Origin: Pseudomonadota bacterium
Lineage (GTDB): Bacteria > Vulcanimicrobiota > Xenobia > RGZZ01
Direction: 5' to 3'
Length of the DNA: 40,919 nucleotides
NCBI GenBank assembly: GCA_010028905.1
Contig: RGZZ01000005.1
Span: 1 to 40,919, forward strand
Below the pieces are notes generated by a model that ran no database searches, was not told the DNA's origin, and worked only from the letters and a program-made list of their open reading frames with translations. Made by a program: the position numbers and the translations under genes. The first letter of the stretch is position 1; each line of letters starts with the position of its first letter. Positions 7,495 through 14,150 of this stretch are shown here, in pieces.

Positions 7495-7899
7495 GTGAAG
7501 ACATCGAGAGAAGAGAGCTGTGAGGAACGAAACGTGAGAACCTTCGAGGCCATCGTCGAGACCCAGGTGCGTCAGATCAACCGGCGTGAGGCCAGTCGCT
7601 ACCACATGACGCCTGCGCAGATGGGCATCGGCCTGTCGTCAGAGCCTGGCGCCGAGGTGCTCGACTACAGCCACGGCGGTCTGCGCCTGCGCACATCGAC
7701 GCCGCTGGCCGAGGGCACACGACATCGCTTCACGGTGAGCCTTCCCTGCGCAGCATCGCGCGACATCACCTTCCAGGTGCGCTGGTCGAAAGGCTGTGAA
7801 TGTGGCCTGGAGGCCGTCAACACCCCGGAGGTGCCAGAGGCGGTGCGCCTGATGACTGAAGCCGTCATGGCCCTGGTGGCGCGCAGCGAGGCGGCTTGA
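7495..7899 (+). CDS. PilZ-like domain protein
   Basis: The 134-residue cytosolic protein has PilZ traits: an arginine cluster (NRREASRY) before the barrel, then DYSHGGLRLRT, matching the (D/N)xSxxG motif, then beta strands ending FQVRWSKGCECGLEAV. PilZ domains bind cyclic di-GMP through the RxxxR and D/NxSxxG motifs; here the arginine motif is RREASR, slightly off consensus, so ligand binding is uncertain. Two GTG starts are possible. GTG 7495 has GGAGAAGG upstream; GTG 7534 has GAGGA 7 nt upstream, and the shorter product would lose only 13 polar residues. It stands alone, with a candidate operator at 7423-7438. Confidence 0.7.
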   Translation: MKTSREESCEERNVRTFEAIVETQVRQINRREASRYHMTPAQMGIGLSSEPGAEVLDYSHGGLRLRTSTPLAEGTRHRFTVSLPCAASRDITFQVRWSKGCECGLEAVNTPEVPEAVRLMTEAVMALVARSEAA

Positions 7900-7954: not shown

Positions 7955-7987
7955 AAAAAAACCGACAGGCGGCTTGCGCCGCCTGTC
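7955..7987 (-). terminator. Strong intrinsic terminator of the small RNA
   Basis: Minus-strand hairpin GACAGGCGGC-GCAA-GCCGCCTGTC (7987-7964): perfect 10-bp stem with a GNRA loop, followed after GG by seven U (7961-7955). It is the clearest rho-independent terminator in the window. Confidence 0.85.
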
Positions 7988-8177
7988 GACGGAGAACTCG
8001 CGCGTAGCGTGCTACGCGCCCACCCCTCCGAGGGTGGGTCTCATACTGTCAGAAGGAATCGGACCCACCTCCTTCCCTGCCGCGCGTGCGCGACATGCGA
8101 GCTCCAGGGCGGCCAACCCTCGCCCGCTATCGCGATCCCTGGCCGGGGACCGCGAGTTCTAAAACGTTGCTTGCGAT
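7955..8177 (-). ncRNA. Candidate structured small RNA (about 220 nt) with own promoter and terminator
   Basis: The 362-nt gene-free stretch 7900-8261 holds on the minus strand a promoter (8184-8213), a segment closed by a perfect 10-bp stem (arms 8151-8160 and 7993-8002, AGAACTCGCG/CGCGAGTTCT) enclosing 148 nt, and an intrinsic terminator (7955-7987). Within it, GGTGGGTC/GACCCACC (8062-8069 with 8033-8040) can form an apical hairpin. The same GACCCACC can instead pair with GGGTGGG at 8019-8025, giving two exclusive folds. A further hairpin GCGCGTAG/CTACGCGC abuts the closing stem. No ORF fits it and no minus-strand gene follows closely, so it is not a leader. Size and closed-stem layout recall 6S RNA, but I see no diagnostic 6S, RNase P, SRP or tmRNA motif. 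The 5' end is inferred from the promoter. Confidence 0.6.
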
Positions 8178-8183
8178 GCGTGC

Positions 8184-8213
8184 ATCGTAGCACATCTCCC
8201 CTCTGTCAGTCAA
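8184..8213 (-). promoter_or_regulatory. Promoter of the candidate small RNA
   Basis: Minus strand TTGACT (8213-8208), 18-nt spacer, TACGAT (8189-8184). It lies 49 nt beyond the stop of the dicarboxylate symporter gene and points away from it, so it would drive an independent transcript starting near 8177. Confidence 0.6.
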
Positions 8214-8261: not shown

Positions 8262-9623
8262 TCATGCCCGATCGATCGGGCCCGCGGCCAAGGCGTTGCG
8301 CGCACGATCCACATCGAGCTCTCCCTCCCAGTGTGACACCACGAGCGCCGCCACGCCGTTCCCCACGAAGTTGGTGAGCGCGCGCGCTTCCGACATGAAG
8401 CGATCGACGCCCAGGAGCATGGTGATCGACGAGACGGGCAGCGTCTGGGTGGCGTTCAGGGTTGCGGCAAGGGTGATGAAGCCGCCCCCCGTGACGGCCG
8501 CCGCTCCTTTCGAGGTGAGCATGAGCACGAGCAGGAGGAACATCTGATCTTGCAGCGGCAGCGGCGTGTTCGTGGCCTGCGCCAGGAAGACCGCCGCCAT
8601 CGTCAGGTAGATGGATGTTCCGTCGAGGTTGAATGAGTAGCCTGTCGGCACCACGAGACCCACCACCGATCGAGGACAGCCCAGTTCCTCCAGGCGTGCC
8701 ATCAGGTTGGGCAATGCCGCCTCTGAAGATGAGGTTCCCAGCACCACGAGGAGCTCGTGCCGGATGTAGGCGATGAAGGCAACGATGGAGAGACCGAGAG
8801 CGCGCATGGCAAGCCCGAGCACCACGAGCACGAAGAGCAGGCAGGTTGCGTAGACGCACAGCATCAGCCAGACCATGCTGGCCAGCGACTCGACCCCGTA
8901 CCGCCCCACGGTGAATGCCATGGCCCCGAAGGCACCCAGGGGCGCCAGACGCATGATGAGGGCTACAATGTCGAACAGGGCCTCACTCCCCCGTTCGGTG
9001 AGCTCGAGCAGCAGATGGCCACGCTCTCCCAGTCGTGCAAGGCTGAATCCGCAGAGCACCGCAATGACGAGCACCTGAAGCATGTCACCGCTCGAGAACG
9101 CGCCGACAAAGGTTTCTGGAACGGCGCCCATCACGAAATCGACAAATCCTCGTGCCTTGCTGGGGTCGGCCACCTTGGCCAGATCGGCTGTGCCCACGGT
9201 CGACGGCGGAGGCGTCACGCCGCTGCCGGGCTTCACCAGATTCACCACGACGAGTCCGATGACGAGGGCCAGCGTGGTCATTCCCTCGAACCATATCAGG
9301 GCCTTCACGCCCACGCGTCCGACTTTGCGCATATCGCCCATGCCCGCGATGCCCACCACCACGGTGGCAAAGACCAGGGGCGCGATCACCATCTTCACCA
9401 GCTTTATGAAGATCAGCCCCAGCGGCTCGAAGCGGACCGCGAGCGCGGGCGAGACGAATCCGACCGCCGCGCCCAGTGCCACGGCTACGAGCACCGCGAG
9501 ATACAGGCGTCCGGAGGCCGGAGAGGCAGAGGCGTCTGGAGTGATGGGAATCTCCTCGGGTCGTGTTGAACCGCCTCTTCGCGAATCCGGCCCCTTCTCC
9601 CTGGCTTCGGCCGACCTGCGCAC
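8262..9623 (-). CDS. Dicarboxylate/amino acid:cation symporter (DctA/GltP type)
   Basis: The 453-residue inner-membrane protein has the DAACS family signatures. A first hairpin motif GTSSSEAALPNLM is followed by VPTGYSFNLDGTSIYLTMA (the conserved NxDGT cation/substrate site) and, in the last helix, GVDRFMSEARALTNFVGN, which supplies the substrate-binding Asp/Arg/Asn set. The RFMSEARALTN form is closest to DctA, importing succinate, fumarate or malate with protons or sodium; glutamate transport cannot be excluded. Eight helices and two re-entrant loops are expected. The first 38 residues are polar and unconserved, so an internal start is possible. It is divergent from the nitroreductase gene (42-nt gap). 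Confidence 0.92.
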   Translation of the reverse strand: MRRSAEAREKGPDSRRGGSTRPEEIPITPDASASPASGRLYLAVLVAVALGAAVGFVSPALAVRFEPLGLIFIKLVKMVIAPLVFATVVVGIAGMGDMRKVGRVGVKALIWFEGMTTLALVIGLVVVNLVKPGSGVTPPPSTVGTADLAKVADPSKARGFVDFVMGAVPETFVGAFSSGDMLQVLVIAVLCGFSLARLGERGHLLLELTERGSEALFDIVALIMRLAPLGAFGAMAFTVGRYGVESLASMVWLMLCVYATCLLFVLVVLGLAMRALGLSIVAFIAYIRHELLVVLGTSSSEAALPNLMARLEELGCPRSVVGLVVPTGYSFNLDGTSIYLTMAAVFLAQATNTPLPLQDQMFLLLVLMLTSKGAAAVTGGGFITLAATLNATQTLPVSSITMLLGVDRFMSEARALTNFVGNGVAALVVSHWEGELDVDRARNALAAGPIDRA

Positions 9624-9665: not shown

Positions 9666-10343
9666 ATGACCGACAAAGAACCCTTCGGCATGCCCATCGA
9701 AGAGGCGATGCGCACCCAGCGTGCCATGCGCCGGCTCAAGGCCGACCCCGTCGACGACAGCCTGGTCTTGCACCTCGTCGATCTGGCCATGCGAGCGCCC
9801 AGCGGGGGCAACCAGCAGAGCCAGCAGTTCATCGTGGTGCGCGACCGTGCGGTCATTCGCCGTCTCGGCACGCTCAACCGAAGAGCGTGGCGGGTTTATG
9901 GAGGACTCGGTCGGCTTGCCATGCGTGGCAACGATAAGATGAATCGGCTCATGGACGCGGGCGATCACATGGCCGAGCACTTCGACGAGATCCCGGTCGT
10001 CGTGGTGGCCTGTCTGCGCGGGCGGGCTCCCCTGCTCCCCCATCTGGCCGTCGCCTCGTACTACGCGTCGATCTTCCCATCGGTGCAGAACCTGCTGCTC
10101 GCTGCGCGGGCGGCGGGGCTCGGGGCGTGCCTCGTCACCCTGCCGCTGTGGAACGTGCGCGCCCTGAAGCGCGCCTTGTCTCTCCCGGGGAATGTGACGC
10201 CCTGCGCCATCATCCCCCTGGGCTGGCCGATGGGGCGTTACGGGCCTACGACCCGTCGCCCGGTGGGCGAGGTGGTGCATCTCGATCGGTGGGGGAACCA
10301 GCCTTTCAGAGACCTTGGAGGCGCCACATCTGACCCGTCCTGA
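9666..10343 (+). CDS. Nitroreductase family FMN oxidoreductase
   Basis: The 225-residue protein has the family's N-terminal FMN phosphate motif, TQRAMRRLKADPV, followed by MRAPSGGNQQSQQFIVV. The cofactor-binding GLGACLVTLPLW comes later, and the C-terminal IPLGWPMGRYGPTTRRPV corresponds to the usual (I/L)xxGxPxxxxGPxxRRPx segment of this branch. Such enzymes act as homodimers, reducing nitro compounds, quinones or flavin-like substrates with NAD(P)H; the true substrate cannot be read from sequence. The ATG at 9666 fits the usual N-terminal length. It is followed 88 nt later by the STAS gene. Confidence 0.9.
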   Translation: MTDKEPFGMPIEEAMRTQRAMRRLKADPVDDSLVLHLVDLAMRAPSGGNQQSQQFIVVRDRAVIRRLGTLNRRAWRVYGGLGRLAMRGNDKMNRLMDAGDHMAEHFDEIPVVVVACLRGRAPLLPHLAVASYYASIFPSVQNLLLAARAAGLGACLVTLPLWNVRALKRALSLPGNVTPCAIIPLGWPMGRYGPTTRRPVGEVVHLDRWGNQPFRDLGGATSDPS

Positions 10344-10848: not shown

Positions 10849-13017
10849 TCAGGCGGCGGGATCGAGGACCTCTGCCGTAAGGCCCTTCGACGTGTGGTTC
10901 GACAGGCGCTGCATCGTGGCGCTCCACAGCAGCAGCGTGAGCGAGACCATCACGCCCGTGGCCGCCACGAGGTGGACGAAGCTCACGAACGGATCGTGTG
11001 AGACGATGCCGAGGTCAGCCAGGAAGCGGGATCCTGCCGTGAGCGACGGCATGAACGAGAGCACGGCCGTGACGGGAGAGCCCGCGCCCAGTGAGGCATA
11101 GAGGCAGAAGGTGAGGCCAAGAGCCGCCACGCGTCTCACTGGAGAGGAACCGCTCGCCATCGCGCTCATCGAGCCGTAGAGAAAGCCGCCGGCCAAGACG
11201 AGCGGGAGCAGGACGGGCGCGGCGAAGAAGCTTGCCAGCACGATGGTCAGGCCCAGCAGATGGGCGTCGTGCGACGTGCGGCTCACCGCAGACGCCCACA
11301 ACCCGAGCGCAGCCGCCGCGGCGGCGACAGACAGTGCATAGATGTAGAGCGAGAGCACCTCGAAGCTCGTGAGCCCCCCCGTGCAGACGAAGATGACCAG
11401 CACGGGAAAGGCCACCGTCATCTGCGTGAGGGGCAGCGTGATGGCGCCCATCAGCTTGCCGAACATGGCCTCGTCGCAGGAGATGCCGGTCAGGGCCAGG
11501 TCTTCCCAGGTGCGTCGTGAGCGCTCTCCCGTGACCGCCGTGGCCAGGAACGCGGAGAAGCGCATCGAGAGATACAGCAGCAGGAGAACGATGGCTCCCG
11601 TGAGACCGACGTGCAACGAGGTCTGAGAAGCCGCCGCTGCCTGGGTCGGGGTGATTTTCGAAACGGGCTTCGCCGGCGTGTCGAGGCCCAGGGCTCTGGC
11701 CGTTCCCGCGTCGGGTTGGCGCTGCTCCACCATGGCGGGCTGCGCGGTCTGGTTGCGGGGAGAGGTGTAGAACTTGAGCGAGCCCTTCGGCAGGCTGACG
11801 CCGTAGCTCTCGAGGAGCATCAGGCGCAGGCAGGCGATGGACGTGTGCCCCTCGACCACCACCGTCGTCTCGTATGCCGAGGTGTAGTCGTTCGGCGCAC
11901 TCGTGGGGGCGACGTAGAGGGCCAGCGTCCCTTCCTTGGGAGCGGCCTCACGGGTCGCCTTCGCATCGGTGGTGTGGATGAACGCGGTGGAACGGATTTT
12001 CGCACCGCGCTCGCGAGAGGTCTTCAGATCGTTGAGGGTCCAGAAATGGGAGTAGAAGCTCGGGGCGATCAGCAGGACCACGAAGACCAGGTAGCCGGGC
12101 CAGCGGCCCGCCCCCGCCCGCAGCTGACCCACCATCTCTCGCAGGAACGACGGGTTCGAGGCGAGAGAGGGGAGCAGCCGGGTCACGAAGGTCTGCGCGC
12201 CCGCCCGATAGACGGGGTGGACCTGGGTGTCAGAGAGCCCTCCCCCACCCACGAGGCCGCGATTGAAGCGCGCGGCCGTGGCGGCCCAGAGAATCGCGCA
12301 GATCACGGGAACGGCCGCGATGTACAGGGCGGGCAGCCAGGTGTGAAGACCGCTGAATGCCTCAGGCACATCGAGCGAGGCAAGCGCGGCGAGCGGGTTC
12401 ACGCTCGTGAAGACAGGAGGCGGGGTGGGCTGCAGGAACACGGCACCCACCACGAGATCGAAGAGCGGCGTGAGGAGCAGCCAGACGCCTCGGGCAACCC
12501 ACCCAGTCACCACGGCCTGCGAGGTGCTGGCGCAGACGCTCGAAACGAAGAGTCCCCCCAGGGTGGCGAGCAGACCGGCCAGTGCGGCGATCACGATGGC
12601 GCCGAACGTCACCACGACCCCCTGATCGCCCCATATCCCGACCGCAACGACGGTGGGTGAGAGCACGGCCAGGAGGGTGAGCAGGCGGGTCAGCTCGGGT
12701 TGGATCTTGAGCAGGAGCACCTCGTTGGTGGTGAGCTGGGTCAGGCGCAGGCAGTCGAGGGTCTTCTTCTCGCGCTCCACTGTGAGGGCTCCGAAGGTTC
12801 CGTTGCCCACCCAGAGCGATGTGCCCAGAACCATGAAGAAGGTGGCGATGCTGAACATGGTGCAGCCGCAGACGCCGAGCATGAACGGCGTGAGAATGGC
12901 CACCGCGAACGCGAGCCCGACGGTGATCTCCCATCGGACCTGGGGAGACGCGTCGCCAGGGATGCGGCTCACAGGGGGCGTGAATGGCGTTCCTGGGCTG
13001 GTGTTCGACTGATTCAT
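10849..13017 (-). CDS. ABC-2 type permease, apparently two fused half-permeases
   Basis: Start ATG 13017 overlaps the ATPase stop as ATGA, giving translational coupling; 722 residues result. A first set of membrane helices precedes a hydrophilic stretch (about residues 340-470, probably extracytoplasmic), then a second set. Each half contains the cytosolic coupling-type motif: EREKKTLDCLRLTQLTTNEV in the first and ERSRRTWEDLALTGISCDEA in the second, both followed by a helix beginning with a lysine-containing 'K(I/L)'. This duplication suggests that one polypeptide forms the whole transmembrane channel, with an ATPase dimer beneath. The substrate is unknown; ABC-2 systems export drugs, lipids, polysaccharides or peptides, or form gliding-type complexes. 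Confidence 0.8.
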   Translation of the reverse strand: MNQSNTSPGTPFTPPVSRIPGDASPQVRWEITVGLAFAVAILTPFMLGVCGCTMFSIATFFMVLGTSLWVGNGTFGALTVEREKKTLDCLRLTQLTTNEVLLLKIQPELTRLLTLLAVLSPTVVAVGIWGDQGVVVTFGAIVIAALAGLLATLGGLFVSSVCASTSQAVVTGWVARGVWLLLTPLFDLVVGAVFLQPTPPPVFTSVNPLAALASLDVPEAFSGLHTWLPALYIAAVPVICAILWAATAARFNRGLVGGGGLSDTQVHPVYRAGAQTFVTRLLPSLASNPSFLREMVGQLRAGAGRWPGYLVFVVLLIAPSFYSHFWTLNDLKTSRERGAKIRSTAFIHTTDAKATREAAPKEGTLALYVAPTSAPNDYTSAYETTVVVEGHTSIACLRLMLLESYGVSLPKGSLKFYTSPRNQTAQPAMVEQRQPDAGTARALGLDTPAKPVSKITPTQAAAASQTSLHVGLTGAIVLLLLYLSMRFSAFLATAVTGERSRRTWEDLALTGISCDEAMFGKLMGAITLPLTQMTVAFPVLVIFVCTGGLTSFEVLSLYIYALSVAAAAAALGLWASAVSRTSHDAHLLGLTIVLASFFAAPVLLPLVLAGGFLYGSMSAMASGSSPVRRVAALGLTFCLYASLGAGSPVTAVLSFMPSLTAGSRFLADLGIVSHDPFVSFVHLVAATGVMVSLTLLLWSATMQRLSNHTSKGLTAEVLDPAA

Positions 13018-14150
13018 GGGGTGGAGTCCTCCCATCCTTCGCCTGCGCTGGTGACATTGAGATATGCGGTTTCGAGCGTGGACTGCTCTTCCGAGAAGCG
13101 GACGACCGGAAAGCCGTTCCGCACGAGATCGGTGAGCAGCGCGGCCAGACTGGCCTCATCGGCTCCCGCCATGCGGAAGATGACGCAGTCGGCGTCCCAC
13201 CGAAGGCCATCGACATCGGTCCGGGCGCCGAGGAAGCTGAACATCTCCTCTTCGCGCGCCGCGGCCTTGACGCGGACGCGACGCCCGCCCTTGTCTGTGA
13301 TGAGCTGCGCGGTCTGGGTCATGCACTCGAGGCGCCCGCGTCTGATGATGGCCACGCGAGTGCAGATGTCGGCCAGATCCTCGAGGACGTGCGAGCTGAT
13401 GATCACGCTCGTGCCACGTCGCTGGGTACGCCTGAGGATCTCGCGGAGCTCGAGGCGGGCGAGGGGGTCGAGCCCGCTGGCCGGCTCGTCGAGGAGCAGC
13501 AGCTTTGGCCCGTGCTGCAGCGCGCGGGCCAGCCCGAGACGTTGCTTGAGGCCACGGGACAGGCCATCGACGGGCTGGTTCTCCATACCCTTGAGCCCAA
13601 CCAGGGCAAGGGTCTCGTCGATGGCGTAGTCACGTGTCGCCGGTGGAAGGTGGTGGGCGCGCGCGAAGAACTCGAGATACTCGCGCACGAGCATGTCGTC
13701 GTAGACCCCCAGCACGTCCGGCATGAAGCCGATGCAGGCACGAACCTCTCGCGTGTCGGCCAGATCGAACCCGCACACCGTTGCGGAGCCCCGATCAGGC
13801 GAGGTGAGGGTCGCCAGGATGCGGAGCAGCGTCGTCTTGCCCGCACCGTTCGGCCCGACCAGGCCGACGATCTCGCCCGATTCGACGGTGAGCGACACGT
13901 CGTCGAGCACCGTGGTGCCGAGATAGCGCTTCGTGAGCCCGACAGCCCTTACCAGCGGAGTGGATGTCGCATCTGCGCCACCGCGCTGCCCGCGGCCCTC
14001 GCCGCGTGCCCGCAGACCGGCCAGATCGGCGTCGTGGGCAGCGCGTGACGCCACGTCGTCTCGATGGCGGTCGACGTCGACCCCGGTCTCCGTCGCGGAT
14101 TCTAAAGGGACGAGGCGGCTGGTGGAGACCTGCCGCGGGTCTGTCGTCAT
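13014..14150 (-). CDS. ABC transporter ATP-binding protein
   Basis: The 378-residue nucleotide-binding subunit carries Walker A GPNGAGKTT, signature LSRGLKQRLGLARAL, Walker B LLLLDEPASGLDP and H-loop SSHVLEDL. The sequence is of the CcmA/NatA/GldA kind that pairs with ABC-2 permeases, and the C-terminal 90 residues form the regulatory extension seen in that group. The first 65 residues are polar, Arg/Asp/Ala-rich and unlike the family, but the ATG at 14150 has AGGAG about 9 nt upstream. The stop overlaps the permease start by 4 nt. A 22-codon reading frame ends 3 nt before this ATG. Confidence 0.93.
   Translation of the reverse strand: MTTDPRQVSTSRLVPLESATETGVDVDRHRDDVASRAAHDADLAGLRARGEGRGQRGGADATSTPLVRAVGLTKRYLGTTVLDDVSLTVESGEIVGLVGPNGAGKTTLLRILATLTSPDRGSATVCGFDLADTREVRACIGFMPDVLGVYDDMLVREYLEFFARAHHLPPATRDYAIDETLALVGLKGMENQPVDGLSRGLKQRLGLARALQHGPKLLLLDEPASGLDPLARLELREILRRTQRRGTSVIISSHVLEDLADICTRVAIIRRGRLECMTQTAQLITDKGGRRVRVKAAAREEEMFSFLGARTDVDGLRWDADCVIFRMAGADEASLAALLTDLVRNGFPVVRFSEEQSTLETAYLNVTSAGEGWEDSTP

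Follow-up and report, generated by a model that had tools for sequence, protein, structure and literature searches.

The extended Shine-Dalgarno initiation sites of Staphylococcus aureus cvfC1, ccpN and aur (PMC13009471) are among the nearest described counterparts of the locus reported here, sharing with it Shine-Dalgarno to anti-Shine-Dalgarno pairing beyond the canonical core and an AUU codon at suitable spacing. These sites precede protein genes, whereas the corresponding block here lies within a terminated RNA gene that lacks a conserved protein or coding bias. Translational riboswitch platforms and other Shine-Dalgarno-sequestering RNAs likewise have exclusive hairpins, through which a Shine-Dalgarno sequence is either masked or exposed, but the present RNA has no downstream protein gene in two of the families that carry it (f1 and f4), and its terminator ends the structure. 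Further likenesses are found in 6S RNA (RF00013), also a stand-alone structured RNA of ~200 nt; in tmRNA (RF00023), which is likewise structured, encloses a short open frame and makes a contact resembling a pseudoknot; and in the CsrB/RsmZ-type sponges, which share a decoy-like concept with exposed GGA motifs.

A promoter-to-terminator unit in a gene-free gap

The window, the whole 40,919-nt stretch of DNA analysed, comes from a genome (G000) that is 100% complete. On the minus strand, positions 7955-8213 hold a compact structured segment between a σ70-like promoter and an intrinsic terminator (Table 1) and lie in a gene-free gap of ~360 nt between a PilZ-domain ORF convergent to the RNA gene (7495-7899, plus strand) and an SDF-family symporter ORF (8262-9623, minus strand). 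The promoter and the 10-bp, GNRA-loop terminator with seven U proposed in the first-pass annotation were both recovered as described; the promoter scored nine of 12 matches with a TG preceding the −10 element, and was the sole site in 1.4 kb (shuffles give 0.1 ± 0.2). The segment folds with an energy of −114.5 kcal/mol compared to −95.9 kcal/mol for shuffles, none of 200 being as good. In both G000 and G002 the surroundings of the RNA include a gene of the nitroreductase family and one for an ABC-2-type permease (window 9666-10343, plus, and 10849-13035, minus, in G000; L002 240-1052 and 1365-2792, both minus, in G002), a case of partial synteny.

Table 1. Predicted features of the RNA gene, in window coordinates
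Feature	Position	Strand	Basis or remark
σ70-like promoter TTGACT-N18-TACGAT	8184..8213	−	Promoter scan; −35 TTGACT at 8213-8208, spacer 18, −10 TACGAT at 8189-8184; predicted transcription start ~8177
Predicted mature RNA, ~223 nt	7955..8177	−	Distance from promoter to terminator; z = −4.3 for folding; eight other genomes hold homologues
5' hairpin HP1, loop CGGCCA	8131..8154	−	Loop complementary to UGGCCG of HP2; possible kissing loops
Hairpin HP2, loop holds UGGCCG	8097..8127	−	Partner of HP1 loop
Hairpin P2 (GUCGCG..CGCGGC)	8079..8094	−	All cells paired (100%); both sides differ at one pair; covaries across families
GGGAAGGAGGUGGGU, block complementary to 16S rRNA 3' tail (extended Shine-Dalgarno)	8063..8077	−	Pairing in nine members
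Possible 15-codon ORF, AUU start (IPSDSMRPTLGGVGA-UAG)	8012..8059	−	AUU 8 nt after GGAGG
Hairpin H2 CCCACCC-U-CGGAG-GGGUGGG	8019..8038	−	Covariation; 5' arm pairs alternatively with GGUGGG of block (H1)
Hairpin P3	8000..8018	−	Both sides differ at four pairs among the members
Invariant CUCCG	7990..7994	−	Complementary to invariant CGGAG in H2 loop (8026-8030); just 5' of terminator
Intrinsic terminator, 10-bp stem, GCAA loop, seven U	7955..7987	−	Sequence and terminator/promoter analysis; 7987-7955 reads GACAGGCGGC-GCAA-GCCGCCTGTC-GG-TTTTTTT

Distribution and relation to known RNA families

The search for homologues started from a nucleotide comparison with 58 relatives, which gave strong matches limited to the RNA body (G002, query 65-242 at 77% identity; also G008 and several f2 genomes), and the G007 member was identified through the common core. 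A covariance model trained on eight members recovered a further one, in G010, that lay outside the training set (106 bits, E = 2e-26). Covariance-model search yielded nine single-copy members, in G000 and G002 (f1), G003, G007, G010, G013, G016 and G017 (f2) and G008 (f4); none has an E-value worse than 1.8e-18, and a gap separates them from the next matches. These members cover three of the four families of one uncultured bacterial class, Eremiobacterota. The model found no convincing match in eight f3 genomes, in the 61%-complete G001 or in the remainder of 149 genomes of the phylum. The f3 genomes without the RNA are G004-G006, G009, G011, G012, G014 and G015, of which at least G014 shares the 16S 3' tail described below. 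When 84,980 species genomes from all phyla were scanned with a sequence pattern, the matches were seven contigs, all from that class and equal in length to the contigs of seven of the nine members, in records titled Candidatus Eremiobacterota, bacterium SZAS-1, CPR1 and BWSM_10, with one labelled Armatimonadetes. The members come from metagenome-assembled genomes and, because all belong to one class and most to one genus, they represent an independent evolutionary depth of ~five lineages.

Several weaker candidates were set aside. A second match in G000, at C424 (24.5 bits), lacks the 16S-complementary block described below, as do the two best, which were inspected, of the weak matches elsewhere in the phylum (18-26 bits). 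A phage or mobile origin was rejected, there being no match among phages and none in viral contigs in the collections searched.

Inspection by eye revealed that promoter-like TTGAC(T/G)-N17-TA..(C/G)(C/G)T-like sites precede the members in G008, G013 and G010 and that TTGATC-N17-TACATT precedes the one in G007, with no such site evident upstream of the G002 member. Terminator hairpins lie 3' of the RNA in the members examined.

None of the known families accounts for the locus. With 4227 Rfam families at gathering scores the window matched tRNA only, and relaxed thresholds gave no match at the RNA locus; five relatives searched at E ≤ 1 gave two sub-threshold hits and none above threshold, one of the two, located at the terminator end in L002, scoring 23.1 bits where the cut-off is 218. 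The first-pass annotation had offered 6S RNA as its nearest guess, and size and stem-loop shape do recall either 6S or a degenerate housekeeping RNA; such an origin is hardly credible, since neither the 6S model nor the tmRNA model with its tRNA-Ala-like domain matches the locus, which lacks a tRNA-like domain, and all four RNAs occur elsewhere in G000 above Rfam cut-offs, canonical 6S at C183 (49.6 bits), tmRNA with a full match at C85, SRP RNA at C11 and RNase P RNA at C75. As a separate observation, the f1 RNase P RNAs (G000:C75:8151-8533, G001:C6:7194-7575 and G002:C30:1596-2001) diverge strongly from the bacterial type A model, scoring 87-107 bits, whereas others from the class score 256-282.

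Covarying hairpins, a 16S-complementary block and two folds

The conserved core consists of a Shine-Dalgarno-like block, three covarying hairpins and a match between a hairpin loop and CUCCG. Covariation of helices across homologues, the mark of a structured non-coding RNA gene, was found for P2, H2 and P3, which form in 95-100% of alignment cells. Over the nine members, 98.2% of pair cells are formed, and seven pairs (15 cells) are changed on both sides; only 0-1 of 500 shuffles did as well, slid controls reached at most about 53% paired, and an earlier alignment of eight members gave the same result.

The helix that had been singled out for a covariation test, a perfect 10-bp stem closing around 148 nt, behaved differently from these three. 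The repeat AGAACTCGCG/CGCGAGTTCT (8160-8151 and 8002-7993) is present exactly as claimed in the window, but it is weakly kept in relatives: at most 8 bp are visible in G008, G002 has it in weak form and f2 shows nothing of it. Four of its base pairs compete with a 5' hairpin. We rejected it as a hallmark, as it is not clearly kept outside f1 and f4.

The loop of H2 reads NCGGAG, with CGGAG invariant, and CGGAG can pair with CUCCG in all nine members, forming a pseudoknot with H2 or a nested stem with H1. Because the pair never varies, this contact is no more than suggestive. The complementary loop letters of HP1 and HP2 are identical in G000, G002 and G008 only and are not evident in f2, so kissing between the two loops is a possible subgroup feature. 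Each of these loops also holds the palindrome GGCC, which could support dimerisation as well.

The conserved hallmark of the RNA, overlooked in the first-pass annotation, is the near-invariant block GGRRRGGAGGUGGGU, which is complementary to the 3' tail of 16S rRNA. The tails, located with a short sequence pattern and verified by the adjoining 16S signature, read ...GGATCACCTCCTTTCTA in G000 and in further genomes of its class, most of them carriers. The 16S tail of Escherichia coli has the same ACCUCC core. Block and tail form 11 contiguous pairs in every member, after which, past one bulged G, GGU:AUC adds three more; the block's three variable positions oppose UUU and are filled by A or G alone. 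Duplex energies range from −21.7 to −26.2 kcal/mol, equalled or bettered by at most two of 300 shuffles per sequence, and on both strands of the 41-kb window no site for the 16S tail is stronger. A ribosome-engaging extended Shine-Dalgarno RNA is expected to be complementary to the 16S tail of its own genome, and this one is.

The proposal of two exclusive folds also held. GACCCACC can pair with either the upstream GGTGGGTC or the downstream GGGTGGG, and forced folds of the two in G000 are nearly equal in energy (−113.9 and −113.3, the pseudoknot being left out). Among members the gap between H1 and H2 is about 0-10 kcal/mol; f2-g4 favours H1, and G007 favours H2. Including G-U wobbles, H1 (GGUGGG:CCCACC; positions 34-39 with 65-70) is pairable in all nine members (54 of 54 cells for its six core pairs), and none of the changes in the CCCACC arm costs either H1 or H2 its ability to pair; as the upstream arm of H1 is fixed, this helix does not covary. 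When single-sequence ensembles were computed with the pseudoknot left out, GGUGGG within the block was paired for the most part. Given the pairing of the block and its duplex energies, the most economical description is an extended Shine-Dalgarno block that would be gated by H1 versus H2.

Judged from sequence, the locus is an evolutionarily conserved structured RNA gene. The homologues, covarying helices, terminators and lack of an Rfam match uphold the earlier view of a self-contained gene, with transcription predicted, and it very probably founds a new RNA family.

Proposed ribosome docking and competing explanations

We propose that the locus encodes a stand-alone RNA of ~220 nt that engages the 30S subunit through its extended Shine-Dalgarno stretch and is gated by the alternative folds, a reading to which the sequence evidence lends about an even chance. 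Its supports are the conservation, the three covarying hairpins, the complementarity to the verified 16S tail and the retention of both alternative pairings; from them we infer that the RNA is transcribed, binds the 30S subunit, is gated and plays a physiological part in controlling translation. The block would pair with the 16S tail in the manner of an unusually long Shine-Dalgarno sequence. In the H1 fold CCCACC would mask the GGUGGG of the block, and in the fold combining H2 with CGGAG:CUCCG, CCCACC would be occupied elsewhere and the block exposed. The balance could be tipped by temperature, by a ligand or protein, or by the ribosome itself, such that the RNA would capture or release ribosomes under particular conditions. 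A narrower form of the proposal, in which the RNA sequesters the anti-Shine-Dalgarno tail as a natural ribosome trap switched by the two folds, is possible but tentative.

Counting against ribosome docking, the long Shine-Dalgarno block could simply serve a small ORF, whose frame and stop persist. The RNA would then be a messenger for a peptide of 15 codons starting at AUU (UUG in G002), with the extended Shine-Dalgarno sequence compensating for the weak start and with H1 and H2 gating translation; what mattered could be either the peptide or the act of translating through H2 and P3. Extended Shine-Dalgarno sequences with AUU or AUA starts are documented in S. aureus (PMC13009471). The frame is open in all nine members and ends at the same UAA/UAG, loop lengths differ by 3 nt such that the shorter loop of two members stays in frame, and AUU lies 8 nt past GGAGG in eight of the nine. 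In the GUAR that contains the stop, GUA is invariant while the remainder of the helix covaries. The frame has no conserved AUG, however, G002 has ACC in place of AUU, and the internal residues are poorly conserved. Variable columns fall at codon positions 1, 2 and 3 in the numbers 10, 12 and 11, and with no third-position bias no selection on the peptide is visible; the codon-level purifying selection expected of a small-protein mRNA was not found, although the open frame and UAR stop are kept nonetheless. We regard the messenger as a doubtful alternative and favour docking on the 30S subunit, as regulator or trap, over a 15-codon message.

An ordinary trans-acting antisense sRNA, using GGAGGUGGG or CUCCG as a seed on C-rich mRNA sites, would also have its own promoter, a terminator and single-stranded conserved stretches of the kind seen here. 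An mRNA seed would not predict that the block fits the 16S tail over its full length or that its variation opposite UUU is restricted to purines, making this explanation improbable.

Still less probable is a riboswitch-like leader or attenuator acting in cis, which would govern its downstream neighbour through conditional termination. In f1 and f4 the next downstream gene is convergent, so that a leader role cannot be general. At the f2 loci L004, L052, L010 and L080, btuFCD-type ABC transporter genes lie upstream of the RNA and a same-strand PNPOx_N-domain gene downstream, directly so in G007 and G010 and with one inserted gene between in G013. This association is confined to f2; no downstream gene is common to all families, and the terminator closes the conserved structure with no antiterminator visible.

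A sponge for CsrA is scarcely conceivable: both the conserved block and the loop of H2 contain GGA, as such a decoy would need in its loops and single strands, but CsrA (PF02599) is missing from G000 and from five of the nine carriers, and the partner suggested here, in contrast to that of CsrB/RsmZ, is 16S rRNA and not a protein.

In the literature searched, with incomplete coverage, we found no natural RNA that binds the anti-Shine-Dalgarno sequence, and a search combining the phylum with non-coding RNA returned nothing apparently on the subject. If the block does dock on the 16S tail, the RNA would be a natural example of regulating or sampling ribosomes via the anti-Shine-Dalgarno sequence outside ordinary mRNA initiation, and if the trap is true, the class would possess an RNA acting as a global brake on the initiation of translation. 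Hardly any non-coding RNAs have been described from this phylum, to which the locus contributes a conserved family.
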